DNA of 20,221 nucleotides from Methanoregulaceae archaeon (lineage in GTDB: Archaea; Halobacteriota; Methanomicrobia; Methanomicrobiales; Methanospirillaceae), in NCBI GenBank assembly GCA_019695435.1, contig JACTVF010000004.1, forward strand, positions 1 through 20,221, read 5' to 3'. Each line of letters starts with the position of its first letter. Position 1 is the first letter of the stretch. The position numbers and the translations under genes are program-made. Under the pieces are notes generated by a model, which was not told where the DNA came from, did no database searches, and saw nothing but the letters and a program-made list of their open reading frames with translations. Shown one piece after another: positions 4,364-19,400 of this stretch.

Positions 4364-5799
4364 AACAGTTCCCTCCGCTCGTTGATCGGGGTGATCAGAT
4401 CCTGCCGGTCTGTACGGCCAATGACGTCCTCGGCCAGTTTCTGATCGTGAAGTGTATGCTCGATCCAGTGCGCGATATCCCCCCGTTCCTGATGGTATGC
4501 GATCGAGTCGGCAGGTACCACCCGGAGCAGGTCGCAGAACTGGTCAAGACTGTATGCCGCATACCCGACATAACCGAAAGGAGAGGCAAAGTGGAAAGCC
4601 TCTTCCGGTGTCAGTGTCCGCAGGGTCTTTGCCGATCGTTTATTCTTCATGAACCGGATGTTTCTGTTTTCAAAATCGGCAAGGATCGCCATGTACGTCC
4701 TGAATGCATCCTCAGCCTCATGGTGGCTGAAGTAGTTGTGCACCTCGCCGCAGGTCCCATACTTGGAGGCCATATAATAGAAGTGGTCGCTTGTCTGGAG
4801 ATATCGCCAGATTGCCTTGTCTTTGGCAAAGGCCGCAGCTTTCTGGATCGCTGAGTATGCCGTGTGCTGCCGTTCGTTGCCCATCCATGCGGAAGCATCC
4901 TTCTCGATATCAGCCCACGATATAGTTTCACGGACATCGATTGCCCCGACCGGTTGGTAATTTTCAAGGGCCTCTGTGGGCAGGATGGTCCTGACTCCCC
5001 GTTGTTCCAGCTCAAGAGGGAGGTATGAGAGGAAATTAAGGATCCCGGTCTCTTTCCAGAAATGCTCACCGAAGGTTTCGTAATCGATAAAGATATTGAC
5101 GAGATCCCCGGTTGTACCACTTAACCAGTCTGCATAGGTGTCCGCAGTCAGCGGGTACTTGTCCCAGCCCTGGTTGCCAAACCGGAACGCGATATCATCG
5201 GAGAGCTGAATATCGCGGAGAAGAACGGGCATATCATTACAGGTGTAGACATGGTGCGGGCTGCGCCAGTCGAGTACCCGGTCTACACCTTCAGTGAATG
5301 CGCCGGCATAGCCCATCCCTTTTACGCAGGAGGCAATCTGGTTATTGAATGTGAACTCGGTATTTTCAAAGACTGTTGGACGGATCCTGAACAGGTCGTA
5401 CATCAGATCGGTATGTAACCTTGCCTGCTCGATAAATTCTGATTTGTCGCCAAAGCAACCGGCAATGCTGTGATAATAGGTCTGCCCGAGCAGCTCGGAA
5501 TTCCGGTGACGGGCTACCTGGTCAAAGAGGGACAGGACATCCGGTTGCCACTTCTCCAGTTGCTCAATAAGCGTTCCGGAAAAAGAGAATGCGCAGTGGA
5601 AACCCTCATCCATTTTTTCCAGAATTATTTGGGTGGCAGGCAGGTAGCACTTTTCAGATACCCTCTCCAGCACTTCCCGGTTCAGTTCATCAAAATAGAG
5701 CGTGCCCAGATCCTTTTCCTTCTTCTTTGGATCCGGAGAAAAGTGGCGGTTCAGCCGGAAAGGCTGATGCACTTCAAATCCAATACAGACTTCTGGCAT
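4345..5799 (-). CDS. GH57 alpha-amylase-like glycoside hydrolase
   Basis: Family GH57 enzyme of 484 residues, acting on alpha-glucans through an incomplete TIM barrel. Conserved regions are visible in order: HQP at 11-13, GQTYYHSIAGC (about 105-115), FENTEF with the nucleophile Glu148, and FIDYETFGEH with the acid/base Asp239. The frame could open at a TTG (5814), but a GGGGA site lies eight bases before the ATG at 5799, while AGGA directly abuts the TTG, so the ATG is preferred. There is no signal peptide, so it acts in the cytoplasm, probably on glycogen. It is the first gene of a two-gene operon with the overlapping glycosyltransferase. One of the five palindromic sites and a TATA-like element lie about 170-220 bases upstream, suggesting stress-linked control. 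Branching or amylase specificity cannot be separated by eye. Confidence 0.88.
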   Translation of the reverse strand: MPEVCIGFEVHQPFRLNRHFSPDPKKKEKDLGTLYFDELNREVLERVSEKCYLPATQIILEKMDEGFHCAFSFSGTLIEQLEKWQPDVLSLFDQVARHRNSELLGQTYYHSIAGCFGDKSEFIEQARLHTDLMYDLFRIRPTVFENTEFTFNNQIASCVKGMGYAGAFTEGVDRVLDWRSPHHVYTCNDMPVLLRDIQLSDDIAFRFGNQGWDKYPLTADTYADWLSGTTGDLVNIFIDYETFGEHFWKETGILNFLSYLPLELEQRGVRTILPTEALENYQPVGAIDVRETISWADIEKDASAWMGNERQHTAYSAIQKAAAFAKDKAIWRYLQTSDHFYYMASKYGTCGEVHNYFSHHEAEDAFRTYMAILADFENRNIRFMKNKRSAKTLRTLTPEEAFHFASPFGYVGYAAYSLDQFCDLLRVVPADSIAYHQERGDIAHWIEHTLHDQKLAEDVIGRTDRQDLITPINERRELLWSHLK

Positions 5800-5967: not shown

Positions 5968-6017
5968 TATTAAATAGAGTCTTTCCCGAATATCAAATTT
6001 TGAGACAATGTTTGAAA
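5968..6017 (-). promoter_or_regulatory. Promoter with palindromic site A (GH57-GT4)
   Basis: The core palindrome at 5994-6014 reads CAAATTTTG, AGA, CAATGTTTG; seven of nine arm bases pair. On the minus strand a TATA-like TATTTAATA lies at 5968-5976, 17 bases from the core. The predicted start of transcription is near 5943, giving a leader of about 145 bases to the GH57 ATG. This is one of five related sites in the window. Confidence 0.55.
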
Positions 6018-6048
6018 GTTGGTGTCTGAGATGATCGAAAAAGAGGTT

Positions 6049-7422
6049 TCAGCACAGATTTTTTTTCCGGAACTGGCGGGCACAAATAGAGATTGCTTCA
6101 CCAGCCGTGGGAAATACATGATACATATCTGCCAGATCGTGGACAGATAGGAGCTGGGTTACTGCCAGAACTGATGCCTCGATAATTTCAGTTGCAAGCG
6201 GGGCACAGAGATGTACCCCAAGTACATGTTCATCAGATTTACTGACAACTATCTTTACCATCCCACGGGTATCTCCTGTCATGAAGGAACGGACCATGGA
6301 GTCCATCCGGAGGGTCTGAGTGATCGGATCCAGGCCAGCTGTCCGGGCCTGCGCCTCGGTCAACCCGACCCCGGCGACCTGTGGCATAGTGCAAATTCCA
6401 TGGGGAATGAACGAGTGGATAATGGATCGCTTCAGATCCGAAAATGCATTCATGGCGGCGATCTCCCCGCCGTAACGTGCGGCCGTCTCCAGCATCGGTT
6501 CTCCTGTAACATCGCCTGCGGCCCAGATATTCGGCGCCGAAGTCCTCAGGGTGGCATCCACAAGGACCGCCCCGGAAGGAGCGGTTTTCACTCCGGCCCG
6601 GTCGAGTCGGAGTTCTTTTGTATTGGGGGAGCGACCGACAGCCAGGAGCAGTTGCTCTGCGGAAAATATCTGTACGGTTCCTTCGATAATGGCGGTAACC
6701 GCAACTCCATTCGTGGTCTTCTCGACGCTCTTGACCTCTACCCCAGTACGGATATCTATGCCCTCTTCACTGAGATATCCGGCAAGGAGATCGGCTATTT
6801 CCGGTTCTTCGTCAGGAATAATTCGGGCACTCCGCTGGAGGAGCATGACTTTTGTCCCGAGATGGGCATAGAGTTGGGCAAACTCGAGTCCCAACGCCCT
6901 TCCACCGATAACAATAAGCGATCCGGGGATGCGTTCCGGGCTCAGTGCCTCTGCATTTGTCATGAACGGAACAGCATTTATTCCCGGAATGGGCGGAATA
7001 GCGGGAGATGAACCGGTAGCGATGATCGCACGATCCGTGGTAACATTACGGCTACCGATCTGCAGCTTCGTGGGTGAGAGAAACACCGCATTACCTTCGA
7101 TGATTTCGATATTAAGCCCGGCTATCCTGTCCGTTTTCTTCTTTTTCAGCCGCCCGATCAGGGAATCTTTTTCGGCAAGGACTACGGACAGATTGAAACG
7201 GCTGTCCATCCCAATACCCGTATGGCCATGGTTTTTGTAATAATAGTACTCCGCAAGCGTAAGGAGAAACTTGCTCGGGACGCATCCGGTATTCACGCAT
7301 GTACCCCATAGGGAACTACGCTCAACAATTGCCACGCGTGATGCTCCCTTATGAACCGCGGTAGTTGCCGCAGTTGTCCCGGCGGCACCACTTCCGATCA
7401 CGACAAGATCATACATGGCCAT
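6049..7422 (-). CDS. MerA-like pyridine nucleotide-disulfide oxidoreductase
   Basis: FAD- and NAD(P)H-dependent flavoprotein of 457 residues. The FAD-binding VVIGSGAAG (about 7-15), redox-active disulfide GTCVNTGCVPSK (Cys42, Cys47), NAD-binding VIGGRALGLEFAQ (around 172-184), second FAD contact WAAGDVTG and a dimerisation domain are all present. The end of the dimerisation domain reads HVFPTAGE where lipoamide dehydrogenase has the catalytic His (HAHPT). That points away from lipoamide dehydrogenase and towards the mercuric reductase-like group, but only a single C-terminal Cys (NLC) is present instead of the MerA Cys pair, and there is no N-terminal HMA domain. True mercury reduction is therefore doubtful; it may reduce another disulfide or metal. 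Start ATG 7422 has AAGGG five bases upstream. It is the last gene of the SOD cluster, 23 bases after the ferredoxin remnant, and a short T5 run follows at 6038-6042. Confidence 0.85.
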   Translation of the reverse strand: MAMYDLVVIGSGAAGTTAATTAVHKGASRVAIVERSSLWGTCVNTGCVPSKFLLTLAEYYYYKNHGHTGIGMDSRFNLSVVLAEKDSLIGRLKKKKTDRIAGLNIEIIEGNAVFLSPTKLQIGSRNVTTDRAIIATGSSPAIPPIPGINAVPFMTNAEALSPERIPGSLIVIGGRALGLEFAQLYAHLGTKVMLLQRSARIIPDEEPEIADLLAGYLSEEGIDIRTGVEVKSVEKTTNGVAVTAIIEGTVQIFSAEQLLLAVGRSPNTKELRLDRAGVKTAPSGAVLVDATLRTSAPNIWAAGDVTGEPMLETAARYGGEIAAMNAFSDLKRSIIHSFIPHGICTMPQVAGVGLTEAQARTAGLDPITQTLRMDSMVRSFMTGDTRGMVKIVVSKSDEHVLGVHLCAPLATEIIEASVLAVTQLLSVHDLADMYHVFPTAGEAISICARQFRKKNLC

Positions 7423-7445
7423 TCAAACCCTTACGTCATTCCCCG

Positions 7446-7662
7446 TTATGGATGACCTGCGCTGGGGCTAAGATCTGCATCCCCGGCCACGCATGCGTAC
7501 AATTCCTGAGGACCAAATCTTTCGGCAGGATTTTCGGCTGACCGAAATTGTTCGATCACCTTACTGAACGAGGCATTCGGGTTCTGTTCAAAGAATGCCA
7601 GGCACGTCTCCCAACAGGAACTGCACCTTAACACATCCCTGTCTGTCAATCGTTACTTTCAT
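7446..7662 (-). pseudogene. Ferredoxin, frameshifted
   Basis: The N-terminal MKVTIDRQGCV (ATG at 7660-7662) is in one frame; after the bases GTTAAGG one extra base shifts the reading. Removing that base gives an unbroken cluster motif CVKCSSCWETC (CxxCxxCxxxC), followed by a typical ferredoxin body (FFEQNP, FSKVIEQF, GPQELYACV) ending at 7446. Intact it would be about 71 residues, a normal size for a small archaeal ferredoxin. Beyond the frameshift, the usual Pro after the fourth Cys is Leu, and the distal DLCP, whose Cys normally ligates the cluster, reads DLSP. The break is not in a long homopolymer. It sits just upstream of the MerA-like flavoprotein, for which a ferredoxin could have been an electron partner. 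The downstream half can also be read from a TTG at 7649, but that would lack the first Cys. Confidence 0.75.
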
Positions 7663-7759
7663 CCTGCTTCCAACTTTATTTTGGGATAGTTTCATTGCAA
7701 TGACCGTATAGTATTTCGAGTCTGTCAACCCTTGAAATGCTATGATTCCGTTGTTTTGG

Positions 7760-8026
7760 TCATGCTTTACAATCTTCACGTTCTGTTGTCCGCATCCCAG
7801 TTCCCTGCAAAGAAGGCACCCGGTTCAGGTATATTATCTGGCGTAAATCCCGCATGTTTAATTTTTCGACGACGAGATGTCGCTCCTTGAGTTTGTTTAT
7901 CCCATACCGCACGGTGCGCGGGCTGAGCTGTGTCTTTTTCACCAGATCCTTGTGCGACATTTCTGTGCCGGCATCAAGAATCGTGAGAATGGTTTCCGAA
8001 GACCGGGGGAGTGGTGATGTTGTCAT
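7760..8026 (-). CDS. Winged helix-turn-helix transcriptional regulator, MarR-like
   Basis: An 88-residue DNA-binding protein, almost entirely one winged-helix domain: ETILTILDAG (helix 1), SHKDLVKKTQLSPRTVRYGINKLKERH (helix-turn-helix with recognition helix, about 24-50), then LVVEKLNMRDLRQIIYLNR (wing). This matches the MarR/ArsR-type domains common in archaea, without an obvious ligand or Cys-based sensor domain. The start ATG 8026 has no Shine-Dalgarno site but follows the preceding gene's stop by only 18 bases, so translation may be coupled. Its place inside the SOD/A-domain cluster suggests it controls that cluster or the related palindromic sites. That link is inference: a dimeric winged-helix protein would suit a palindromic operator, but no direct evidence is in the sequence. 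Confidence 0.82.
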   Translation of the reverse strand: MTTSPLPRSSETILTILDAGTEMSHKDLVKKTQLSPRTVRYGINKLKERHLVVEKLNMRDLRQIIYLNRVPSLQGTGMRTTEREDCKA

Positions 8027-8044
8027 AGTTAAAAAGACCCGGGA

Positions 8045-8392
8045 TCAGCCGCAGCTTGTCCCGCAGCCCTCCCCCGTACCCTGGTCGGCTTCTTCTTTGT
8101 CTATAAGGATCCGTGCAAGTGCTTTTTCGACAAAGTCATCGAACGAGTCCATCTCCCCCCAGTTTTCAACGAGATAGTTCTCTGATATCTCCGGGTTTGG
8201 CAGGATGAGAACATTGCCCTCATCGTTCCGGGACGTAATGTATTTTCTCGCACGGTGCACGCGGTGCAGGGTTTCCTCTTTTTTGGGGATACGTGCTGTC
8301 ACCACCCAGTAGGTCTCAAGATCCTGTACATCGACATAGATCTCGTGTTCCTGCCGGAATTTGTTTAAGTCTTTCTGAGTTGTTTGTAACAT
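8045..8392 (-). CDS. Hypothetical protein with Cys-rich tail, next to A-domain protein
   Basis: This 115-residue protein belongs to no family I recognise. The ATG at 8392 is chosen over the GTG at 8401 because a near-perfect AAAGGAGGTGA lies just before it and the GTG falls inside that site. The N-terminal part is charged and strand-rich (EIYVDVQDLETYWVVTARI), the middle basic (HRVHRARKYITSRN), the later part acidic and helical (FDDFVEKALARILIDKEEAD). It ends with a flexible tail GTGEGCGTSCG whose two Cys could bind metal or form a disulfide. It lies 32 bases downstream of the encapsulin-like A-domain gene and 18 bases before the winged-helix regulator, so all three are surely co-transcribed. 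It is a candidate partner or cargo of the A-domain protein, which is speculation. Confidence 0.8.
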   Translation of the reverse strand: MLQTTQKDLNKFRQEHEIYVDVQDLETYWVVTARIPKKEETLHRVHRARKYITSRNDEGNVLILPNPEISENYLVENWGEMDSFDDFVEKALARILIDKEEADQGTGEGCGTSCG

Positions 8393-8424
8393 ACAGTTCA
8401 CCTCCTTTGTGCTCCCGTTCTCCT

Positions 8425-8715
8425 TTAGTGAAGCACACAGATGGCCCCCGGGGAACTGATAAGAAAGGCCAGGCTCTCTGAGACACTGAACTCAAAGCGG
8501 TCCCCGGACGGACCATTATACCCAATGTTCATATCCTGCCCTACCACAAGTGAGCAGTACTGCCGGCCTGAGGCAAGAAGAACCCCGCCTTTATTTAAGG
8601 CCGGGGCTTTTATCACATCCCCGGCAATATCGAGACGTATCGCCCGGACGAGTTCCTCGTGCGTAAGCCGGCGTTCTGGTAATATACCACCGGACGGATT
8701 GACAAATTTAGGCAT
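8425..8715 (-). CDS. Encapsulin-like stand-alone A-domain protein
   Basis: This 96-residue protein resembles only the C-terminal part (A-domain and end strand) of HK97-fold encapsulins. APALNKGGVLLASG, SLVVGQDMNIGY and FSVSESLAFLI match, in order and spacing, the encapsulin pattern of a Gly-rich strand, VGQDLSIGY and a TESFTF-like strand near the end. It lacks the N-terminal arm, P-domain and E-loop, so it is about a third of normal length, yet the gene is intact with its own start (AAGGAG, six bases, ATG 8715). Small A-domain-only proteins are described as family 4 encapsulins (DUF1884-type, known from Pyrococcus) and usually sit beside an enzyme. Here the upstream neighbour is superoxide dismutase, 100 bases away, and the downstream one a small Cys-tailed protein. 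The homology is read by eye from motifs, and assembly into a particle is unproven. Confidence 0.68.
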   Translation of the reverse strand: MPKFVNPSGGILPERRLTHEELVRAIRLDIAGDVIKAPALNKGGVLLASGRQYCSLVVGQDMNIGYNGPSGDRFEFSVSESLAFLISSPGAICVLH

Positions 8716-8815
8716 GTTTCTCTCCTTTTTCGTAGGGTGTCCTTATCGTTGTACGGGCCGGACGACTACATCTTCTGACATCATGTATGACAGATCCCGG
8801 CAGGGCAAAACCCGG

Positions 8816-9433
8816 TTATTTCTTCAGCCGGTCAAACCTTTTCTGGACTTCGTCCCAGTTCACGATGTTCCAGAATGATTCGACAAACTTTGCCCGGTCG
8901 TTTTTGTAATCGAGATAGTACGCATGTTCCCATACATCGAGTACCATAAGGATATGGAACCCGGGGACGATGTTCACGTTGTGTTTTTCGACCTGCATAA
9001 TGAGGAGTCGGTTTGTTTTCATGCAGTGGGTCAGCACGGCCCATCCCGATCCTTCAGCACTGGTTGCGGCCGCTGTGAACTCTTTTTTAAAACGGTCGAA
9101 TTTTCCAAACTCCTCATTGATTGCCTTTGCCAGTTCTCCTCTGGGCGCGCCGCCACCACCCTTTCCTGCAGGTGCAAGGTTCTCCCAGAACAAGTTGTGG
9201 AGCCTGAACCCCCCGAGATGGAACGACAATTCTTTGAGCGTTGCCTTCACGTCAAAATCCGAGTTCTCTTTCCTTGCTTTGTCAAATTTCTCATAGATGG
9301 CATTTGCTCCGTTGACGTAGGCCTGGTGGTGTTTTGTGTGGTGCAGTTTCAGTTGTTCTTCAGAGATGTACGGTGCTAGGGCGTTGTATGCGTAGGGCAG
9401 TTCCGGTAACGTATAAAATCTGCTTGTTGTCAT
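8816..9433 (-). CDS. sodB: Superoxide dismutase, Fe/Mn family
   Basis: Cytoplasmic Fe/Mn superoxide dismutase of 205 residues, converting superoxide to oxygen and peroxide. All four metal ligands are visible: His31 in [11 protein letters not shown], His79 in [10 protein letters not shown], and Asp166 with His170 in [13 protein letters not shown] His in VEKHN fills the second-sphere position often occupied by Gln in bacterial enzymes, as in archaeal Fe-SODs; the choice of Fe over Mn cannot be settled by sequence alone. Start ATG 9433 is preceded by GAGGT nine bases upstream. The gene opens a cluster running to the MerA-like flavoprotein, and its upstream region holds the palindromic site B and a TATA-like element about 80 bases away. 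No encapsulin-type targeting peptide is evident at its C-terminus (RFDRLKK). Confidence 0.95.
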
Positions 9434-9511
9434 GGTTCGATTACCTCTTTTTCATGTGGGACTTTCCACGAAAGGCAAAGTCCCTCCAATGGCACCGGTA
9501 TTCAACAAGAA

Positions 9512-9560
9512 ATTTTAAAGGGTCTTGCCCATTAATCAAAAATTGAAACAAAATTTGAAG
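9512..9560 (-). promoter_or_regulatory. Promoter with palindromic site B (SOD cluster)
   Basis: The core at 9537-9557 reads CAAAAATTG, AAA, CAAAATTTG (seven of nine arm bases pair). On the minus strand a TATA-like TTTAAAAT lies at 9512-9519, again 17 bases from the core, as at site A. The start of transcription would be near 9487, giving a leader of about 50 bases to the SOD ATG. Confidence 0.6.
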
Positions 9561-9637
9561 GGTTACAGAACATCTGGACGGATACAGTTTGCCCGTTACC
9601 GCATACACTTTTCCCCTTCCGTGAGAGGGGGGCCCGG

Positions 9638-9854
9638 TCATTTCTCAACCAATTTGACGACATTGGCGCAGCAGTCTGAAGCGGCCCGGACTTCACAATT
9701 CCTGAGATCTTCAGGAGGTGCTCCATTAGCATTGTTCCCATTAAAACTGTGCTTTTCCCACAATCGGGCTGAACAAATCCTCCTTGTTCTTTTTAAACAA
9801 GTCGGGACAGGAGCAGGTGCCGCAACTGATGCAGTTTTTGCGATCAATCAACAT
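9638..9854 (-). pseudogene. Second ferredoxin, frameshifted
   Basis: From the ATG at 9854 the frame reads MLIDRKNCISCGTCSCPDLF and on to SPIVGKAQF, then stops at a TAA. Removing one T from a T4 run restores the frame into NGNNANGAPPEDLRNCEV and AASDCCANVVKLVEK, ending at 9638, a typical ferredoxin C-terminal half. The cluster motif is itself short: CxxCxxC is followed by SCP instead of the usual xxxCP, so two residues are missing. The start sits two bases after the stop of the small upstream frame (TGA, AA, ATG); an in-frame ATG at 9875 is an alternative. With the ferredoxin at 7446-7662 this makes two broken ferredoxins flanking the SOD cluster. Confidence 0.7.
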
Positions 9855-9856
9855 TT

Positions 9857-9991
9857 TCAGGGTCTTAAATCCCATTCCTTTTTTAAGATCACCGCTGATG
9901 CGGGATCGAGGGGGGTGCCCGTCCTCACGCGACCTGCCCCCCCCAAAAAACCGGCCTCCTCTACAAATAGCGGGTAATCTGCCCCGTTCAT
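9857..9991 (-). CDS. Short 44-residue frame, possible gene remnant
   Basis: The frame opens at ATG 9991, five bases after the stop of the 70-residue gene upstream, and ends two bases before the ferredoxin start, so it fills its slot exactly. The product begins MNGADYPLFVEEAGFLGG and ends DPASAVILKKEWDLRP. No family can be assigned with any certainty; YPLFVEEAGFLGGAGRV recalls the Gly-rich stretch of iron-sulfur reductases of the QueG/RdhA type, but this is weak. A run of eight G (minus strand) in the Gly-Gly part makes a further frameshift or truncation possible. Confidence 0.35.
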   Translation of the reverse strand: MNGADYPLFVEEAGFLGGAGRVRTGTPLDPASAVILKKEWDLRP

Positions 9992-9995
9992 CGTG

Positions 9996-10208
9996 TTATT
10001 CCCGCGATTCGAAATATTTCAATGCGGAAGGAAAATGCTTCTTCACCTCGCCAAAGAAATATTTTACCAGTTTTTTGTCCGAATTTGCGATCGATCCGTT
10101 GATAGTGGCGAGCAGCCAGTTTGGCAGATCAGGGTTCTTGTCAAGGACATTCATGATAACGACAACGGTCTCGTCAACGTCAACCTTCTTTTTCCATCGG
10201 TAGGGCAT
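9996..10208 (-). CDS. Hypothetical small basic protein
   Basis: A 70-residue protein of unknown function. It begins MPYRWKKKVDVDETVVVIMNVL and is rich in Lys at both ends. A short hydrophobic strand (TVVVIMNVL) and two likely amphipathic helices (PNWLLATINGSI, KKLVKYFFGEVKKHF) suggest a compact soluble fold. No Cys or catalytic motif is visible. The ATG at 10208 has only a weak GAAG-type site, but the gene follows the ATP-cone gene by 27 bases and precedes the next small frame by four, so it is part of the same transcript. Confidence 0.65.
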   Translation of the reverse strand: MPYRWKKKVDVDETVVVIMNVLDKNPDLPNWLLATINGSIANSDKKLVKYFFGEVKKHFPSALKYFESRE

Positions 10209-10235
10209 GGTTCTTACTTCATTTTGAACCGTACC

Positions 10236-10490
10236 TCATCCCGATCTCTTCTTCACCGCAAGATCATACACTGTCCAGTTCCTCTCCCATTCAGGATTTT
10301 TTGCCTTTAGCATGCCGAGAATTTTGGTTTTGATCTCCTGTGTCGTGATACCGTCCCGGGCACCGCGTTCAATGTCCTGTGCGATTGTCCGTGCGTAGTC
10401 GGAAGGTGCGCCGGTCTTGATCATGCTGACCACGATCTTTTCCGGCACAAACGGTTCCTTCCTGCCATCCCTTTTCTTTACCATAACCAT
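10236..10490 (-). CDS. Stand-alone ATP-cone domain protein
   Basis: An 84-residue protein consisting essentially of one ATP-cone domain, the nucleotide-binding regulatory module found at the N-terminus of ribonucleotide reductases and in NrdR. The opening VKKRDGRKEPFVPEKIVVSMIKTGA matches the typical start (strand, KxDG, then helix), followed by AQDIERGARDGITTQEIKTKILGML, the second half of the cone. The C-terminus ends in NPEWERNWTVYDLAVKKRSG. No reductase or zinc-ribbon domain is attached, so it cannot be NrdR itself (which has an N-terminal zinc ribbon). GGAGAG lies ten bases before the ATG at 10490. It sits between DUF2769 and a small unknown gene. A role as a free nucleotide sensor is inference. 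Confidence 0.78.
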   Translation of the reverse strand: MVMVKKRDGRKEPFVPEKIVVSMIKTGAPSDYARTIAQDIERGARDGITTQEIKTKILGMLKAKNPEWERNWTVYDLAVKKRSG

Positions 10491-10535
10491 CGTTGATCAT
10501 CTCTCCAGAGAGTGCCGCAAGATAAGCACCTGTTT

Positions 10536-10853
10536 TTAGATAATCTTTGTACCCCAGAGCGCGTGTTCATAGCGTTGGGCTTTCTCAGATCCCTTTGTGC
10601 AAAAGAACCTATGTTTCAGTCCCAACTCCGATGTGATCGGGCAGACCGGGCAGATACAATCTTTTTTTTCGGATATGCACATGAAGCTCTTCCCTGTTGC
10701 ACAGAAAAGCAGTTCCTGCTCCTTCTTTGCGCACCGGTTATAGGTCGGACAGGAGGGACACGTACACTTGGCTGCGAATTTTCTGGCGGCCTCTTCCCAC
10801 TCAGCCGGTGTCATTCCGAACATCGACAGCATCGCCTCTTCGAATTTATCCAT
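10536..10853 (-). CDS. DUF2769 Cys-rich protein
   Basis: This 105-residue protein matches the pattern of DUF2769, a family found largely in methanogens with unknown function. It carries two similar Cys clusters: CTCPSCPTYNRC followed by LLFCATGKSFMC, and CICPVCPITSELGL followed by RFFCTKGSE. The repeated CxCPxCP arrangement suggests a metal or iron-sulfur site. Two adjacent ATGs are possible (10856 and 10853); AAGGTGA ends one base before the first and four bases before the second, so the second is preferred. The first would add one Met. It follows an Hsp20 gene by about 150 bases and precedes the ATP-cone gene by 45. Confidence 0.85.
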   Translation of the reverse strand: MDKFEEAMLSMFGMTPAEWEEAARKFAAKCTCPSCPTYNRCAKKEQELLFCATGKSFMCISEKKDCICPVCPITSELGLKHRFFCTKGSEKAQRYEHALWGTKII

Positions 10854-10857
10854 CATT

Positions 10858-11007
10858 TCACCTTGTATATCCCAGTTGTACCGTCATCGGTTCTTTCCGG
10901 CATACGATCGTTGCCACGGTTGCAAGGGATGTATCCTTTTGGTATTTGCTTCCCGTTCTTGCCCGCCCGATAATGATCCGGTCGTATGGGCACCTGGCAC
11001 AATCATG
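10858..11007 (-). pseudogene. Startless open frame after Hsp20, UspA-like tail
   Basis: Directly after the Hsp20 stop (11008-11010) the same frame stays open for 49 codons, beginning HDCARCPYDRIIIGRARTGS and ending EPMTVQLGYTR. There is no ATG, GTG or TTG before codon 31, so it is not an independent gene as it stands. The order IIIGRARTG, then SLATVATIVCRKEPMTV, resembles the C-terminus of universal stress proteins (Gly-rich nucleotide loop, then SVATKVVRHAPCPV-type ending). It is best read as a remnant of a stress-protein gene truncated at its 5' end; stop-codon readthrough from Hsp20 is a less likely alternative. The ribosome site of the DUF2769 gene overlaps its last codons. Confidence 0.4.
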
Positions 11008-11487
11008 TTAGTCGATAGAAATTTTTCCCCGTGATTCTTTGGTGGTCTTTTTCAAGTGTACTTCCAGGACACCGTTCTTGAATGTTGAAGACGATCCCTC
11101 TTCTGTCACCGGTTTCGGGAGCGGGATGATCCGTGTCATCGACCCGAACGTGCGCTCGCGCATGTAGTACCCCTCTTTCTCCTCTTTCTTCTCCTCCTTG
11201 CGCTCGCAGGAGATCTCCAGTGCCTGAGGGCCGATCAGATCGAGGGTGATATCCTTTTTTGCTACACCCGGGATGATGTCTGCGGTGACAACCACTTCGT
11301 CATCCTTCTCCGACACATCCACATGGAAGGATGTCCGTTGTGCAGGCAGCTGTTTTGCGGCCGGTTCACCGGTAGCAGGCAACAGAGCTACCGGACTGGT
11401 ATCATATAACTGCCGGGTCAGCGAATCCATGTAGTTCCTCATGTCTTCAATCTCATCAAAGAGCGATCGGTAATACCATCGTACCAT
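11008..11487 (-). CDS. hsp20: Small heat-shock protein, Hsp20 family
   Basis: An ATP-independent chaperone of 159 residues. The frame extends to 11610, but GAGGTGA five bases before the ATG at 11487 and the start of similarity fix the beginning at MVRWYYRSLFDEIEDMRNYM. The alpha-crystallin domain spans about 50-150, with FHVDVSEKDDEVVVTADIPG-type strands (here DIIPGVAKKDI), YYMRERTFGSMTRIIPLP, and the hallmark FKNGVLEVHLKK. The extreme C-terminus KISID carries an I-x-I motif used for oligomer assembly. The variable N-terminal region (about 1-45) ends in a Pro/Ala-rich linker. A palindromic site (C) lies about 157 bases upstream, on the side of the divergent plus-strand gene. Genes downstream to 9638 may be co-transcribed. 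Confidence 0.93.
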   Translation of the reverse strand: MVRWYYRSLFDEIEDMRNYMDSLTRQLYDTSPVALLPATGEPAAKQLPAQRTSFHVDVSEKDDEVVVTADIIPGVAKKDITLDLIGPQALEISCERKEEKKEEKEGYYMRERTFGSMTRIIPLPKPVTEEGSSSTFKNGVLEVHLKKTTKESRGKISID

Positions 11488-11618
11488 CTGTTTCACCTCA
11501 CTTTTTCGTGGTTGTATCCGGATCCCGTTTTCGGGTAGCCTTTCGGTCAAGGGATACATGGTTCTACACGGTGAACCCGCAGAACTACCATCCCTTATCC
11601 AACAGTGCATTTATGGAG

Positions 11619-11668
11619 TATTTCATCAAATTATTCTGTAATATCAAAATTTGAAACACATTTTGAAA
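11619..11668 (-). promoter_or_regulatory. Palindromic site C between Hsp20 and a divergent gene
   Basis: The core at 11645-11665 reads CAAAATTTG, AAA, CACATTTTG, with eight of nine arm bases paired, so it is close to a perfect palindrome. At the 17-base distance seen at sites A, B and D, the minus strand has only a poor TATA match (ATGAAATA, 11619-11626); a better AT element (AATAATTT, 11628-11635) lies nine bases away. The site also lies 35 bases upstream of a plus-strand TATA box, so it could act on both genes. Confidence 0.55.
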
Positions 11669-11700
11669 ATATGGGCATCATTTTTGTAAGATCTTTCCTT

Positions 11701-11710
11701 TTTTATACTA
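11701..11710 (+). promoter_or_regulatory. TATA-like promoter element of the plus-strand gene
   Basis: TTTTATACTA at 11701-11710, preceded by a T-rich stretch, is a good methanogen-type TATA box. Transcription would start near 11732 and leave a leader of about 175 bases before the gene at 11909. That leader contains two short reading frames. Confidence 0.5.
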
Positions 11711-11759
11711 ACGGTCCCTGATTACATCCCGCCCAAATCCATAATTCAAACCGGGATCG

Positions 11760-11896
11760 ATGTTCGAGTACGAGATAGAATACCTCAAAATGTGCGATAT
11801 GACAGAGGGGAGCGGGAGCAGATAATGGCTGTACTAACCAGCTCGCCTGGTCTCTGGAATGATACCCGTTTCTGGTCATCACCGGAGGAAATATGA
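11760..11896 (+). other. Leader with two chained short ORFs
   Basis: The leader of the next gene contains two short frames. The first (11760-11825) encodes MFEYEIEYLKMCDMTEGSGS plus Arg and ends with TAA. The second starts in TAATG overlap at 11825, has GGGAG six bases upstream, encodes 23 residues (MAVLTSSPGLWND onwards) and stops at 11894-11896. Its stop is followed directly by the GAGGTGA ribosome site of the gene at 11909. This arrangement could couple or attenuate translation. Neither peptide resembles a known protein, so coding is uncertain. Confidence 0.3.
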
Positions 11897-11908
11897 GGTG
11901 ACTAATCG

Positions 11909-12298
11909 ATGAGTGAAGATGCGAAACAGATCATAAAACACCTGACTGAGCAGTTATGGGCATTGCAATTCAGGGATTACCTTGTGTCTGAAGATTTTTC
12001 CCGGTTCTGCAGAGAATATGATCTGGTTGATGCATGGGGAGGAACTCTCGACCTCTCCCGGAACATACCGAATTTATACGGGGGTATGGAGATGAAGAAT
12101 GCATTTGTTTTGCTTTTGCTCCATATCTACCGGAGCCGGCAAAAAGAATTTCCAGCATTGTTTACTCGTCTCCTCACCGGTTTTTCCCATGGGATTTCCT
12201 ACCCCCTGCCTCTTGACGACATGAAAAAGGATCTGGTGCTCCTGGGCTATTCTGCACATGAGATAGAACAAGAATTATCCGGCATGAATAATAATTAA
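11909..12298 (+). CDS. Hypothetical protein, helical, cytoplasmic
   Basis: A 129-residue protein with no family I recognise. The start at 11909 is fixed by GAGGTGA seven bases upstream. It is mainly helical and acidic: an opening helix KQIIKHLTEQLWAL, a motif-like DYLVSEDFSRFCREYDLVDAWGG, then a hydrophobic helix MKNAFVLLLLHIYRSRQ that is too short and charged at the edges to be a clear membrane span. It ends LLGYSAHEIEQELSG and Asn residues. It is the only complete gene on the plus strand in the window, divergent from Hsp20 and sharing the intergenic site C with it. This suggests stress-linked expression, but a function is not deducible. Confidence 0.75.
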   Translation: MSEDAKQIIKHLTEQLWALQFRDYLVSEDFSRFCREYDLVDAWGGTLDLSRNIPNLYGGMEMKNAFVLLLLHIYRSRQKEFPALFTRLLTGFSHGISYPLPLDDMKKDLVLLGYSAHEIEQELSGMNNN

Positions 12299-12360
12299 AA
12301 GAATTCCTTAAACCGCGGGGAGAAGATGTCCTGATGAAAAGGGTGATTACTCAATAAAAA

Positions 12361-12376
12361 CCCCAAAAAGAAGGGG
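12361..12376. terminator. Possible hairpin between convergent genes
   Basis: CCCC (12361-12364), eight bases, then GGGG (12373-12376) could form a short stem between the plus-strand gene ending at 12298 and the minus-strand gene ending at 12523. A run of five A precedes it, which on the minus strand gives a T5 tract after the stem. The rest of the 224-base gap (12299-12522) shows no gene. Confidence 0.35.
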
Positions 12377-12522
12377 ATCCTGTAGTTGTTATATATACCC
12401 AGTGCTTTTCCCGGTCGGGATCACTTGAAAGCCGGGCAGGAATCCTACCACTATAGTCCCGATCTGGATCGATACCAGTAATTCAATGTTGTGCGTTTCG
12501 ATACCTTTTTGCGTTTGCCACG

Positions 12523-13233
12523 TCACGCCGATTTTCTGAACGCCATCTGCGCCACGACACCGGCGAACTTGTCCAGGGACTCGTTCCACCCGGCCCTTGT
12601 CTGATCAAGCATGCCGCCGGGGGGGAGACCAGTATGCCGGAGGGTAAGCCGTGTCCTGCCTGCTTGAACATCAAAGGTCACGGTCATAAGCATTTCAGCG
12701 GGAAAGTCCGGGCTCATGCCGTAATACGTCGCCGGCACCACGTTCCCTTTTTCATCGGCAAAACTATCCGTGCAGACAATTTTTTCCGGTTTTGTAATTT
12801 CCCGGAATACACCGGTACTCCAGTAGTCCTTTCCCTCGGGGGATCGCATGCAGTAGAGATAAGATCCGCCAACCCGGAGATCGATCCGGCAGGAAGGGGA
12901 TGTGAAGTTTTTCGGGCCCCACCACTGCATAACGGCACCGGGATCCGTCCATGCTTTCCAGACAATCTCACGCGGCGCATCGAAAAGGCGGGTGATGATG
13001 AGCACCCCCCCGCATGCATTCGTGTTGAAACTGCAGCCTGCAACCGACGATTCAATTTTGTGGCTGGTTGTATTCACCCGGTAGAGCCGGGGATTGTTCA
13101 GTAAATCCAGTACGTTGATCTTCTGGTCAACGAGATCTTCATAGGAGAAGAAATCGGTAACATCGTTTTCTGCATCGGTCCAGAAGATCTGGACCCCGTT
13201 CTGGTATTTTTTACTGCTTGTAATCTGCTGCAT
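12523..13233 (-). CDS. SRPBCC/AHSA1-domain protein with extra N-terminal domain
   Basis: A 236-residue protein. The C-terminal two thirds (about 76-236) is an AHSA1-type SRPBCC domain, a helix-grip fold binding hydrophobic ligands and related to the C-terminal domain of the Hsp90 activator Aha1. Hallmarks are ITRLFDAPREIVWKAWTDP, VMQWWGPKNFTSPSC, DLRVGGSYLYCM, and the final helix GWNESLDKFAGVV. The first 75 residues (MQQITSSKKYQNGVQIFWTD onwards) form a separate, unrecognised segment with FFSYEDLVDQKINVLDLLNN. The frame opens at a GTG (13278), but GGAGG six bases before the ATG at 13233 identifies the true start. It is the last gene of a four-gene cluster. Its ligand is unknown; archaea lacking Hsp90 still carry such domains. 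Confidence 0.82.
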   Translation of the reverse strand: MQQITSSKKYQNGVQIFWTDAENDVTDFFSYEDLVDQKINVLDLLNNPRLYRVNTTSHKIESSVAGCSFNTNACGGVLIITRLFDAPREIVWKAWTDPGAVMQWWGPKNFTSPSCRIDLRVGGSYLYCMRSPEGKDYWSTGVFREITKPEKIVCTDSFADEKGNVVPATYYGMSPDFPAEMLMTVTFDVQAGRTRLTLRHTGLPPGGMLDQTRAGWNESLDKFAGVVAQMAFRKSA

Positions 13234-13305
13234 GTTCTTCCTCCTGTTTTCATTGCTCCGTTCGTAACGATACTGCACCCGGCTGTTGGCAGTTCATAGA
13301 TGGGA

Positions 13306-13590
13306 TCAGCTCGTGGATCTGACCAGGTCTTCGGGTTTTAGCCATTTGAGCACAGCCTCAATACTGGAAATCTCGCGTTGAATGATCTCTTCGTGAAAAT
13401 ATTCCCTGAGTTTAAATTCGAATTTCATCCTGAATTCGCGGTTCCATCCTTGTTCCGGATCGTACTGATTCCTGATATAAAACTGAAATTCGTCAAGATC
13501 CTGCCGGGTGAGTTTATCGATGAGTGTCGCTTGGTACTTGTTCATGAGGGATCGTTTCATATCATCAAACGAAATTTTTTCCTGATCCAT
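13306..13590 (-). CDS. Hypothetical 94-residue helical protein
   Basis: The product begins MDQEKISFDDMKRSLMNKYQ and is highly charged and helical, rich in Lys, Arg, Glu and aromatic residues (DEFQFYIRNQY, FRMKFEFKLREYFHEEII). It ends in KWLKPEDLVRSTS. No Cys, signal or membrane segment is visible and I recognise no family. The start is supported by GAGGTG inside the end of the preceding gene, whose stop lies only four bases upstream, so the two are translationally coupled. Its neighbours in the cluster are a coiled-coil protein and the AHSA1 protein. A chaperone-like or structural role would fit, but is guesswork. Confidence 0.75.
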   Translation of the reverse strand: MDQEKISFDDMKRSLMNKYQATLIDKLTRQDLDEFQFYIRNQYDPEQGWNREFRMKFEFKLREYFHEEIIQREISSIEAVLKWLKPEDLVRSTS

Positions 13591-13594
13591 GTAG

Positions 13595-13786
13595 TCACAC
13601 CTCGAAACACGACCCTGTTGATTTAGTTGTGCGCCCCATGTCTGTGATCAGGTCTTTTTCCCTTGCGTACCATCTCCGGGAATTATCAAAATCTACCTGG
13701 AGGTATTTGACCTTGTTACGCCGCTCCTCAGCCTGACGGGTCTGTTTCTTTAGTTCTTTTTTGAGTTGTTCAATGTCGTCCATCAT
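13595..13786 (-). CDS. Small coiled-coil protein
   Basis: A 63-residue protein whose first 30 residues (DIEQLKKELKKQTRQAEERR) have a clear heptad pattern for a coiled coil, with alternating Lys/Glu charges. The rest reads KVKYLQVDFDNSRRWYAREK and ends GSCFEV. The sequence recalls the start of GrpE-type dimerisation helices (YLQVDFDNSRRWYAREK is like the YLRLQADFENYRRR segment of GrpE), but the rest of GrpE is missing, so this may be a GrpE-like fragment or stand-alone helix. GGGAG lies four bases before the first of two adjacent ATGs. It follows the Cys-rich gene by 46 bases. Confidence 0.72.
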   Translation of the reverse strand: MMDDIEQLKKELKKQTRQAEERRNKVKYLQVDFDNSRRWYAREKDLITDMGRTTKSTGSCFEV

Positions 13787-13832
13787 GTCACTCCCTTACC
13801 TATGCTGGAGCATTTCACGGTGTACGCATTTT

Positions 13833-14063
13833 TCAGTCACACCCTGGATAATTCCAGTAATGCCGGATAAAATCAACATAAATGCAGTCATGGCGATCGC
13901 AACGGTTGCAGCCATATGCCGGACAAGGAATCCCATAGGTGGGATTTTCCGAGAAGAGCCCCTTATGAGTAATACATTCCCCTTTACAGAAATTACTCCA
14001 GATTTTGTCAAGAGCCTCACCGGTCATATATAACCCGTCTGAATGGTCATCAACGGAAATCAT
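13833..14063 (-). CDS. Small Cys-rich protein
   Basis: A 76-residue frame starting MISVDDHSDGLYMTGEALDK. It contains FCKGEC, then PCPAYGCNRCDRHDC, and ends HYWNYPGCD, so there are eight Cys, most in CxxxC, CxxC or CxxxxC spacing, with His residues nearby. A zinc or iron-sulfur site is likely. GGTGAG lies very close to the ATG at 14063; the first gene after palindromic site D and its TATA element would start here. A competing frame on the same strand (13796-14020) encodes a hydrophobic peptide but only from a GTG without a good site. Codon composition (purine first bases) favours the Cys-rich frame. No family is recognised. Confidence 0.55.
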   Translation of the reverse strand: MISVDDHSDGLYMTGEALDKIWSNFCKGECITHKGLFSENPTYGIPCPAYGCNRCDRHDCIYVDFIRHYWNYPGCD

Positions 14064-14090
14064 TCTCACCCGTTTTTGGAATGGACAAGG

Positions 14091-14141
14091 CAAAATATTA
14101 GGCTCTCTTGTCAAAATCAGATTTTGAAACAAAATCTGAAA
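14091..14141 (-). promoter_or_regulatory. Promoter with palindromic site D (Cys-rich/AHSA1 cluster)
   Basis: The core at 14118-14138 reads CAGATTTTG, AAA, CAAAATCTG, a perfect nine-base inverted repeat. On the minus strand a TATA-like TAATATTTTG lies at 14091-14100, 17 bases from the core, the same distance as at sites A and B. Transcription would begin near 14067, a few bases before the ATG at 14063, so the first message may be almost leaderless. Confidence 0.6.
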
Positions 14142-14188
14142 TAACGATGCAACATATTAAAAACGTACGTATCTTCGCCGGCTATGGC

Positions 14189-14470
14189 TTATGGTACCGG
14201 TTTTTCAAGAATGATTTCCAGCACTCCGTCAGAGAACTTTTTTTTGAAAAGCCGTGCTTCCTGAGGGATCCGTATGGCTTTTCGGAGTGTCTTTTCATCG
14301 TCTGATACTGATAAGGTAAAGAGAGTTTTTTCAAGATCGATCCGTATTTGTTCTTCCGTTACTTTGGGAAGATCGATGTTGACGTGAATATACCTGTCAT
14401 CATCAGTCATGCGGATCGGCGGATCGAACGCGATATCATCTGATAGATTATCACGGTCTTTCAATTCCAT
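14189..14470 (-). CDS. Minimal Hsp20-like alpha-crystallin protein
   Basis: A 93-residue protein made of little more than an alpha-crystallin domain: YIHVNIDLPKVTEEQIRIDL (strand and helix), LFTLSVSDDEKTLRKAIRIP, and KKKFSDGVLEIILEKPVP at the end. The DGVLEI segment is the family's GVL hallmark. It lacks both the long N-terminal arm and the C-terminal I-x-I tail, so it probably forms small assemblies or acts as an Hsp20-like cochaperone. The frame opens at 14497, but AAAGGAG four bases before the ATG at 14470 fixes the start (MELKDRDNLSDDI). It lies downstream of a long gene-poor leader carrying site E. Confidence 0.85.
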   Translation of the reverse strand: MELKDRDNLSDDIAFDPPIRMTDDDRYIHVNIDLPKVTEEQIRIDLEKTLFTLSVSDDEKTLRKAIRIPQEARLFKKKFSDGVLEIILEKPVP

Positions 14471-14636
14471 AAAACTCCTTTGCTGGGATTCATACAAACC
14501 CGGTTCGGTTTAATGGATTTTTCCGGGAATATTATCATCTCTCCACCAGAGCCGCCATTTCCTTTTTTTAGAGCTGGCTTCATTACGGATCACTTTCTGG
14601 TAATGATGAGAACTATCTGTTTTTTGGGGAGGAATT

Positions 14637-14667
14637 TTCCCTGGCAGGGATACCCGTTACCAGGGAA
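14637..14667. repeat. Inverted repeat / hairpin in Hsp20 leader
   Basis: TTCCCTGG (14637-14644) pairs perfectly with CCAGGGAA (14660-14667), and an inner GGG/CCC (14647-14649 with 14653-14655) could extend it. No T run follows on either strand, so it is not an ordinary terminator. Confidence 0.5.
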
Positions 14668-14892
14668 TTATTGGATTATATCATCGGACTAAGCGATTTC
14701 CCTGCGGCCAGTTTTTTACTCTGCGGTTTTTCAGAGGTGTGTGTGCAATGGCTCCCGTGCCATCTTCTATGTCCAGTCTTCTGTCCGCAAGGTATATTTA
14801 GGGACTAATGAGGGGTTAATCCTTTGATGCATGGCATTTTCCTTTGATGCGGGCAATTAACACCCACGCCTCTTCCTTATTTCGGCTTCTCC

Positions 14893-14934
14893 ATATAAAT
14901 TACCGAAAGTTTCAGGAATTGTTTCAAATTTTGA
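14893..14934 (-). promoter_or_regulatory. Palindromic site E (small Hsp20 leader)
   Basis: The core at 14913-14933 reads CAGGAATTG, TTT, CAAATTTTG on the plus strand, the reverse orientation of sites A-D. Only six of nine arm bases pair, so it is the weakest copy. ATATAAAT at 14893-14900 gives a good minus-strand TATA (ATTTATAT), 12 bases from the core rather than 17. Confidence 0.45.
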
Positions 14935-16400: not shown

Positions 16401-19400
16401 TTATTTACCCCCGGTATTGAGAGAGAATTCCACAATCACTTCTGTGCCATGGTTACTGGTGATAGTGACGGACCCGTTCAGCTGCATTACAAGACTGCGG
16501 ATGAGTTTGAGTCCCAGGCTAGTGGTATGGTAGACATCCATATCTTTGGGGATCCCGACCCCATCATCATGGACGGCGATACGGATGTGGTCACCCGCAT
16601 GTGTTGCCGAGACACTCAGATTCCCGTGCTTTTTCCCCTTGAACGCATGTTTAAATGCATTGGAAAGGATCTCATTCACCACGAGAGCACAGGGAATGGC
16701 CTGATCAACCGGCAGGTAGATATCCTCTGAATCGATCTCGCTTAAGATCTCGGCACCTGAACGGCCGTATATGCTGGACAGATCTGCCACCTGATCCCGG
16801 ATTTGGCTTCCCATGTTGATCTTATCGAATTGTTTGCTCTCGTACAGTCGCGTATGGATCTGTGCCATGGTCTTGATTTTCATCATCATATCGGTCAATA
16901 TGCTGTTTGTTGTACTATCCTGTGTCCGCATCCGTGTCATATCCAGAAGACCGGATATGATCTGAAGGTTGTTTTTGACCCGATGGTGAATTTCCCGGAT
17001 AAGGGTCTCCTTCTCCTGGAGGGAAGCGACGAGTTTTTCCTCGGCATGCCGGCGGTCGGTGACATCCCGGTAACTCAGAACCCTCCCGATAATCGATGAC
17101 TCCATTTTCTGGGGTTTTGAATATCGTTCAAAAATCCTGCCATCCTTAAGTTCCAGCATGTCATAGGTCTCACGATCCTTGGGATTGTCGTGTTCATCAT
17201 CACTATCCATAAACAACCCGGGATTTTTAACCTGGGTTCTAAGATATTCTGACACCGTACGGTCTTCACCGCTTTGCAGCAGTTCATCCGGAATCTTCCA
17301 CATAGATGCAAAATTCTGGTTATACCGGATGATCCTCCCGGTCCGGTCTACGGCATAAATCCCGTCAGCCGTTGATTCAATGGCTGCATACAGTTCGGAT
17401 ATGGTTTTCTTCACCAGGGATTCCGCCAGCCTTCGCTGGGAAATCTCCTCTTTGAGCTGGGCATTGGACTGCACCAGCTCTGAGGTCCGCTCTTTCACCC
17501 GCTTTTCCAAAAGATCGTGCTCTTTCCGGAGCGCCTCTTCGGCCTTTTTTCGTTCGGTGATGTCCCGGGCAGCGGCGAATGCCCCGGTGACATTCCCCGC
17601 CTTATCCCGGTATAAGGTCGCATTATAGAGGACCGGGGTCAGGTTGCCGTTCCTGTGCCGGATCTCCAGTGCATAGTCGGTCACCGACCCGTCACGGAAC
17701 ACACGCTCGTAGCCTGCCTTTGCTTTCGCAGGCTCCGTAAAGTAGTCCGAGAAATCGGTCCCGACCAGTTCATCCCCAGAGAAACCGGTGACCCGGATCG
17801 TTGCTTCGTTGACGTCACTGATCGTCCCGTCCGGGCTGATGGTGACCAGCGGGTCAAGGCTTGCCTCGATCAGGCTCCGGTTATATGTGTTTGCCCTTTC
17901 GATCGCATCTTGGGCCTTTTTCCGTTCTGTGATGTCCCGTGCAGCGGCAAAGGCCCCGGTGACATTTCCCGCGGTGTCCCTGTATACGGTCGCATTATAG
18001 AGAACCGGCGTCCCGTGCCCGTTCCTGTGCCGGATCTCCAGTGCGTAATCGGTCACCGACCCGTCACGGAACACACGCTCGTAGCCTGCCTTTGCCTTTT
18101 CCGGTTCCGTGAAATAGTCCGAGAAATCGGTCCCGATCAGTTCCCCCCGGGAAAAACCGGTGACCCGGATCGTTGCCTCGTTGACATCACTGATCGTCCC
18201 GTCCGGGCTGATGGTGACCAGCGGGTCAAGGCTTGCCTCGATCAGGCTCCGGTTATATGCATTCGCTTTTTTCAGCGCTCCTTCGGCCTTCTTCTGTTCC
18301 GTAATATCGATGCCCATCTCGAGTATCATGAAGGACCCGTCGGTATCCGTGAAGGGGAAGTCGTAGATATCGTAGTCCCTGCAGTTCGGGCCGGTCCAGA
18401 ACCAGTGATGAGGCGCACGGGTCTTCATGACGGTGTAGGTCTCGCAGGTCTCACATGGTTCATTACGGTTGAAGAGGAAGTCATAACAACGGCGCCCTTT
18501 CGGATCCTTAAAGGTCTCCCGGAAGTACCTGTTGGCAAATGGCATGCGGTAGTCCTTGTCGAGCAGGCAGACATACACAGGGAGCGCCTCAAGAACATCG
18601 TAAAGCCGGTGGCGTTCGGTACTGACAGATTCTACTGCCTCTTCCAGGTCAGCGGTGCGTTCCTCTACGCGCATCTCCAGTTCGTCCCGGGCTTTGAGCA
18701 GCGCTTCCTCTGCCTGTTTGCGCTCGGTGGTGTCCCTGTTCGAACCCCGTGTGCCTAAAAATCTCCCTTCCGCGTCAAGAACCGGCTGGCATACATGTTG
18801 GACCCAGCGCACCTCGCCATCCGGGCGTACGATCCGGAACTCCAAGGTAGATGGACCCTGCCCGGCCATCTCCTGAGCCATGTGTGCAAGCAGGATGAAG
18901 AGATCGTCAGGGTGCGTTACGTCCCTGAAAAGAGCCTCTGCAGAGGTATACTGGCTGACCGGCCTACCCAGGATCTTTTTGGCCGATGGTGAAAGGTAGA
19001 TGAACCGGCCATCAGGACCGGTCCAGAACTCCCAGTCATAGGTGAAATCGGCAACGGTGCGGTACCGTGCCTCGCTCTCGCGCAGCGCCGCTTCCGCAAG
19101 CGTGCGATCCGTGATATCGATTGAAGCTCCCAGCATTGCCTCGGTTCCGCCGAACCTGATACGGGCCAGCGAAGCAGAGACCCAGAAGGGGGTCCCGTCT
19201 TTTCGTACAACCTTTACCTCGCGGTCCCGTAACTCGCCTGTTTTACGAAGGATATCGATAGACGCACTTCGTTCAGCGGCATCGTAAAACCGGTCCACTG
19301 CAGGCCTGCCGATAATCTCCCCCGGCTGGAATCCGAATGCGCTGTTATAGGCAGGGTTGGTAAAGAGGATCGTACCGTCTGATATGCTGCTGACAGATAA

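Follow-up and report, generated by a model that had tools for sequence, protein, structure and literature searches.

Why does one 21-bp palindrome recur in front of five separate gene units in a short stretch of a methanogen genome, and what reads it? The stretch analyzed here, called the window throughout, comprises the 20,221 nt at positions 1 to 20,221 of contig JACTVF010000004.1 (assembly GCA_019695435.1, Methanoregulaceae archaeon), and an original prediction made from its letters had proposed that the five palindromes, A to E, mark a stress regulon. The palindromic sites are promoter elements, phased to a TATA-like box and conserved before orthologous genes, and both linked to and co-occurring with the gene of a response regulator encoded in the window. 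The palindromes probably serve as the operators of a single stress regulon, and the two-component system of the window would read them, its regulator acting as a phosphorylation-controlled activator; the probability of this reading is put at roughly 0.68. The regulon would be common to Methanoregula and some relatives. Three things were absent from the original prediction: the phasing of the promoters, the neighboring candidate regulator, and the grpE-dnaK-dnaJ operon found after site D in relatives.

Occurrence of the palindrome

Searching the window with the pattern CAAAWTTTGN3CAAAWTTTG at up to three mismatches returned exactly five matches, all at the coordinates claimed earlier and with the arm pairing given in Table 1, and 100 dinucleotide-preserving shuffles of the window gave a mean of 0.03 matches and a maximum of 1. 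A minus-strand unit lies downstream of every site, as had been proposed. The claim that all five are intergenic held with qualification, as B and E are inside open reading frames (ORFs), though only mechanical ones on the plus strand, and a mechanically extended ORF (13833-14132) runs into D. The start that corresponds to the one in relatives, however, is the GTG at 14069, 48 nt past site D, and D therefore reads as intergenic.

Within the organism's own draft genome (G000; 2.99 Mb, 508 contigs, 84% complete), the pattern was found in 18 places at up to three mismatches, against 5 for the backwards pattern, and in 8 against 1 at up to two mismatches, with 5 of the 18 and 4 of the 8 in the window contig. 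The good places beyond that contig include one each before genes for a P-type ATPase, a secreted-repeat lipoprotein and an ice-binding-like protein, and another on the contig carrying a second copy of the regulator. Several three-mismatch matches (L022, L023, L024, L026, L027) are inside long ORFs and were treated as background. A degenerate palindrome, CARAWTYTGN3CARAWTYTG with up to one mismatch, was used for the genus and family, and occurred in 82 places in 39 genus genomes, against 1 for the backwards control, and in 45 against 0 (summed by hand) in 69 family genomes from outside the genus. Two other families are nearly free of it, with 1 place in total in the f5 genomes and 0 in the f4 genomes. 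The motif is over-represented in the scan of the genus genomes, and the outcome that would have counted against the original prediction, a motif equally common elsewhere, did not appear.

The arms are AT-rich, and similar palindromes that lack a promoter exist in some related genomes, so that chance AT-rich palindromes or a dispersed repeat might be considered. The shuffle and backwards controls reject chance, and the conservation of sites before orthologous genes, described below, rejects a dispersed repeat, leaving an explanation of either kind a negligible probability.

The sites of L017 and L099 are near the gene start of ice-binding-like secreted proteins, and those of L016 and L018 are similarly placed, near the start of ORFs with no product assignment. 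L016-L018 have GCCGGCAT in common on the gene side of the site, together with a poor TATA box.

Promoter geometry and conservation

In the gene-ward direction the sites have the consensus (tGTTT)CAAAATTTG-TTT-CAAAATCTG-ATTTatgGgAAAgAttc-TATAAAAT, and the gene-strand spacer is mostly TTT (19/36 offset-phased sites). Phasing was measured on 75 sites selected by palindrome alone, taking the best TATA-like box on either strand at offsets 5-45. This box starts at offset 16 in 37 of the 75 sites (expected 5.5 for offsets 15-17; binomial p 2e-22), and in 11/30 at loci outside matrix training. A TATA box at offset 16 places the palindrome center 31-32 bp from the TATA center, which is three helical turns. 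With such fixed spacing and AT-rich flanks the palindrome belongs to a composite promoter, and it could be a structural or constitutive upstream promoter element that has no dedicated regulator. That is very unlikely, as only some genomes and some genes have the palindrome, which follows one regulator gene.

A third half-site or runs of half-sites with a 12-bp period were observed at L110:615-647, L120:2968-3000, L121:882-914 and L127:2398-2430, which suggests more than one dimer.

Composite sites were scored using a matrix built from 35 strand-oriented sites, a few of them being both strands of one site. Because the training sites were chosen with a hand-weighted TATA score, counts based on the matrix are partly circular, and its 95 matches across genomes include both strands of some sites. 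The named loci (L149-L180) and the G-numbered genome loci overlap in part, coming from the same genomes, and are not independent sets. Site E is weak, with AAA instead of TTT as its gene-ward spacer and a composite score of 14.1, compared to 48-55 for A-D. Weak sites between the regulator and the small Hsp20-like gene also occur in L149, L151, L155, L158, L180 and L245, and two of those in the first five of these loci face away.

Conservation was assessed as a composite score of at least 15 within 600 bp upstream of a gene. Superoxide dismutase (SOD) has a site in 12/12 loci, with the palindrome beginning 108-126 nt before the gene start, and only the window's own SOD site was in the matrix training set. 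Sites were also found before grpE in 10/14 loci, Hsp20 in 6/9, orfX in 3/3 and the gene at 13306-13590 in 4/8. The proposal that GH57 belongs to the regulon agrees with a site in 3/3 loci, one of them (L180) in a metagenome-assembled genome of Methanospirillaceae. No upstream site was found for old yellow enzyme (0/5 loci), GT4 (0/3), the MerA-like flavin disulphide reductase (0/3) or phosphofructokinase (0/1), and in reversed or shuffled upstream DNA no gene family reached a score of 15. An absence of conservation in related genomes, which would have spoken against the regulon, was thus not encountered, and the candidate stress regulon with a palindromic operator is supported by over-representation, by conservation before orthologues and by the phased TATA-like box. 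That its genes respond to stress is suggested solely by gene content.

The candidate regulator

The candidate is a two-component response regulator, as evidenced by its receiver domain (PF00072, E-value 3.3e-25), in which D9, D53, T81 and K103 are invariant in 30 sequences, leaving the phospho-acceptor set intact. The PadR helix and wing likewise contain several residues invariant in these 30 sequences, and the PadR winged-helix domain is that of the PadR family of transcriptional regulators. The adjacent gene encodes a kinase with PAS, HisKA_2 and HATPase_c domains, and a kinase match directly precedes the regulator in 32/32 named loci. Since a fold search using the full-length regulator model returned receiver-domain proteins among the 50 matches listed, the C-terminal two thirds were modeled separately. 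The middle domain has a RecA-like alpha/beta fold of the KaiC/RecA superfamily. No Walker A motif (GxxxxGK[ST]) was seen by eye in residues 158-330 of the regulator alignment, and the domain reads as an inactivated KaiC-like domain, probably not an active ATPase. Pfam DUF835 had no match in the regulator at E-values up to 1. A second copy of the regulator (G000:C475:1739-3052), 67% identical, is adjoined by a kinase and an Hsp20-like gene and has a site 1.3 kb downstream.

Regulator matches were defined by search, at E-values up to 1e-40 or full length, except in G175, where only a piece at a contig end is present. Of the 24 genomes having both, 16 carry a site that follows the regulator stop within 0-1200 bp (expected 0.06), 14 of the 16 at 750-1135 bp, and in G024, G030, G032, G174 and G207 the linked site is the sole site of the genome at that threshold. 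The linkage count is of 24 genomes, with others such as G017 and G165 outside it, and the G000 list includes site A through the stricter-letter pattern. The 32 named regulator loci (438 kb) contain 25 palindromes and 0 backwards ones, and there are 0 in a set of 47 loci (629 kb), many of them bacterial, whose weaker matches are mostly to the receiver only. Within the genus, 75 palindromes occur in the 25 regulator-bearing genomes and 7 in the 14 others (p 0.0015).

Promoter flanks give a further comparison that makes no use of linkage, in which the 27 nt beyond each palindrome were scored against the 95th percentile of a null, leaving out the genome being scored and taking the initial orientation from the composite matrix. 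Sites were drawn only from retrieved loci, which included 6/7 palindromes of the regulator-less genus genomes. The flank exceeded the null percentile at 60/76 sites in regulator-bearing genomes compared to 3/40 sites in others (p 1e-14), the latter rate matching the null (p 0.86). These 40 comprise 6 sites from the genus, 12 from other family genomes in which the regulator had no full-length match, and 22 from genomes beyond the family, only a minority of which were searched for the regulator; among the 18 from regulator-searched genomes, 2 pass (G205, G206).

A number of observations weigh against a regulon read by this protein. In 8 of the 24 genomes the regulator is not accompanied by any site within 1.2 kb, and linkage and co-occurrence counts are phylogenetically non-independent, with the regulator-hsp20-grpE cluster inherited together. 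The palindrome, at up to one mismatch, is absent from 6 of the 25 genus genomes that carry the regulator, although G020 and G033 have degenerate phased sites. Three flank-positive sites come with no regulator detected, in G205 (64% complete), G206 (75%) and one genome outside the family. Of the 45 family palindromes, 16 sit in G197, G199 and G201, which have no full-length regulator match, and none of the 4 of these examined has an adjoining promoter. The regulator gene itself has an upstream site in 0/45 loci at a score of at least 15 within 600 bp. Sites precede only a minority of AHSA1 (3/9 loci), DUF2769 (2/7) and small Hsp20-like genes (4/27), and, in a few loci each, some other cluster genes, namely ATP-cone (1/7), 9996-10208 (2/7), 7760-8026 (3/13), 7446-7649 (2/9), encapsulin (1/11) and 8045-8401 (1/12).

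Several palindromes in G197, G199 and G201 (loci L314, L315, L317, L326) have the form CTGATTTTGN3CAAAATCTG and no phased promoter. These unphased palindromes are perhaps terminators or another element.

The regulon could also be real but read by another protein, either the 88-aa winged-helix protein at 7760-8026 or an unlinked regulator, with the response regulator a mere neighbor or target. The 7760-8026 protein is encoded in the SOD cluster, is weakly MsvR-like (E-value 5.6e-5, far below the cut-off) and has relatives in several regulator loci. Such relatives are present, however, in 35/39 genus genomes, including 12/14 without the response regulator, whereas the promoter flank tracks the response regulator; in G011 and G022 the single relative is, by identity, of the widespread type, yet their sites are strongly phased (scores 47.0 and 62.5). 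The 7760-8026 protein was rejected as the better candidate for being too widespread, and a reader other than the response regulator is, overall, unlikely.

If the palindromes are read by the response regulator at 15052-16398, the PAS-rich histidine kinase would detect the signal and hand phosphate to it. The regulator, as one dimer or two, may then bind the 21-bp palindrome through its PadR winged helix, and a palindrome centered ~31-32 bp upstream of the TATA center would put it on the same face of the DNA. From just upstream of the B recognition element (BRE) and TATA box, it could activate by aiding the binding of TFB or TBP. Targets would be chaperones (grpE, dnaK-dnaJ where present, Hsp20) and oxygen defence (SOD with the cluster that follows it), with AHSA1 and DUF2769 proteins in some genomes, GH57-GT4, the P-type ATPase and ice-binding-like surface proteins as possible further targets. 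Heat and oxygen are proposed as signals because chaperones and SOD are among the targets. We infer the binding to the motif, the activation that follows from it, the phosphorylation control and the signals from sequence. The opposite sign is conceivable, the regulator binding the sites as a repressor and the genes being released under stress, as sequence does not reveal whether binding activates or represses, and several archaeal stress regulators act as repressors. The sites, however, are at a fixed distance of ~16-17 nt upstream of the TATA-like box, neither over nor downstream of it, and repression is considered improbable. The fuller proposal, that a receiver/KaiC-like/PadR response regulator directly activates a joint heat-shock and oxygen-defence regulon including dnaK, through a phased operator extendable into 12-bp-period arrays, is given slightly better than even odds.

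Known systems and the surrounding genes

Little is known of how methanogens turn on their chaperones and oxygen defence. HrcA-CIRCE and Phr/HSR1 are repressors with palindromic or repeat operators before chaperone genes, and these operators are not known to resemble the motif here. Archaeal chaperone control by phosphorelay activation would, if true, depart from such known repressor-based schemes. In the present case an operator, its promoter geometry, a target list, a candidate regulator and a candidate sensor come together, and each step could be tested with few purified proteins.

The nearest likeness in promoter architecture is TFB-RF1 of Pyrococcus furiosus, which, in the available excerpts of its report, recruits TFB from a palindrome that lies upstream of BRE and TATA with a conserved spacing (PMC5937170). 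As here, a TATA box is accompanied by a regulator-read palindrome farther upstream, at a fixed distance conserved across related genomes. Unlike here, the palindrome is TCTGAANTTCAGA, which differs from the present consensus and does not group the two operators, and the target is a putative ABC transporter operon as opposed to stress genes; the same excerpts make no mention of a receiver domain (PMC5937170). RosR of Halobacterium salinarum has a winged helix that is a fold match to the PadR part of the regulator (PDB 6qfd, 6ez1) and, according to excerpts of its description, resembles the present system in having a ~20-bp imperfect palindrome and an archaeal oxidative stress regulon (PMC4287449). 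Its motif, in contrast, is TCGnCGACGAGnTCGnCGAC, distinct from the AT-rich consensus here and placed on average within 18 bp of gene starts (PMC4287449), and its PDB chains of ~110-116 residues imply that it has no receiver or KaiC-like domain, unlike the regulator.

LtrK/LtrR of Methanococcoides burtonii is likewise described, in the passages available, as a temperature-related two-component system of a methanogen, but LtrR has a helix-turn-helix (HTH)-receiver layout that differs from the regulator (PMC4823666, PMC5847659), and the terms "heat shock" and "chaperon" are absent from the main text of the LtrK/LtrR paper (PMC4823666). Archaeal iKaiC and REC-DUF835 proteins combine a receiver with a KaiC-like domain as here, including in Methanomicrobia, and HTH-bearing or DNA-binding response regulators are rare in archaea, according to excerpts of a 2018 census of archaeal two-component systems (PMC5847659), the main text of which does not contain the word PadR. 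The receiver, KaiC-like and PadR layout would unite two archaeal signaling themes in one protein. A search of titles and abstract openings in the open-access literature, a scope outside which most subscription papers fall, found no described methanogen operator of this sequence, in agreement with the original prediction, and no PadR response regulator in methanogens; nor did the search return any paper combining Methanoregula, two-component and PadR. The parts are of known kinds, and their combination appears new.

In many named Methanoregula loci the histidine kinase gene is followed by the regulator, the small Hsp20-like gene and grpE in that order, with Hsp20, AHSA1 and SOD units further along in several. 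By Pfam, L150 has grpE, dnaK, dnaJ, SOD and a full encapsulin. The window keeps the gene order, with grpE cut to 63 aa and dnaK-dnaJ absent at the locus; HSP70 matches are found in the draft genome on contigs C210, C45 and C385. The unit after site E had been taken to encode a small Hsp20, and this assignment stands only in part, as the match is weak (Table 1); the L150 relative matches NCBIfam Hsp20 at an E-value of 1.1e-9, likewise under the cut-off.

Table 1. Features of the window, with coordinates and supporting evidence.
Feature	Position	Strand	Evidence or remark
Site A, candidate operator upstream of GH57-GT4	5994..6014	-	7/9 arm pairs; composite score 55.0; GH57 sites also in L228, L180
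TATA-like box of site A	5969..5977	-	Offset 16
Site B, candidate operator upstream of superoxide dismutase cluster	9537..9557	-	7/9 arm pairs; SOD sites in 12/12 loci
TATA-like box of site B	9512..9520	-	Offset 16
Site C, candidate operator upstream of Hsp20	11645..11665	-	8/9 arm pairs; composite score 49.0; Hsp20 sites in 6/9 loci
Weak TATA-like stretch at phased position, site C	11620..11628	-	Best-scoring box elsewhere, offset 28
Site D, perfect palindrome upstream of orfX and grpE remnant (L150: grpE-dnaK-dnaJ)	14118..14138	-	9/9 arm pairs; grpE sites in 10/14 loci
TATA-like box of site D	14093..14101	-	Offset 16-17
Site E, weak, between regulator gene and small Hsp20-like gene	14913..14933	-	6/9 arm pairs
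TATA-like box of site E	14893..14899	-	Offset 13
Candidate regulator: receiver, KaiC/RecA-like, PadR winged helix	15052..16398	-	Pfam PF00072, PF03551; model and fold matches
PAS-rich histidine kinase (HisKA_2, HATPase_c), runs off window end	16401..20219	-	Pfam of 16401-20147
Small Hsp20-like protein	14189..14470	-	PF00011 E-value 0.0044, below Pfam cut-off; relatives follow regulator gene in many named loci
orfX, 78-aa Cys-rich protein, first gene past site D	13833..14069	-	Relatives in L150, L164
Truncated grpE	13595..13786	-	PF01025 E-value 6e-4, below cut-off; 63 aa; L150 has full grpE-dnaK-dnaJ here
Hsp20	11008..11488	-	PF00011 E-value 1.4e-11; start ATG
Fe/Mn superoxide dismutase	8816..9433	-	PF02777, PF00081
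GH57 glycoside hydrolase	4345..5799	-	PF03065

Two further genes of the window look incomplete. Only the C-terminal part of the encapsulin in the SOD cluster is left (8425-8715; 96 aa compared to 262 aa in L150). The phosphofructokinase match (691-1751) begins only at position 78 of the profile; by eye, the missing N-terminal part seems to be encoded by an ORF in a different frame (1521-1751), the split possibly being a frameshift or a sequencing error.

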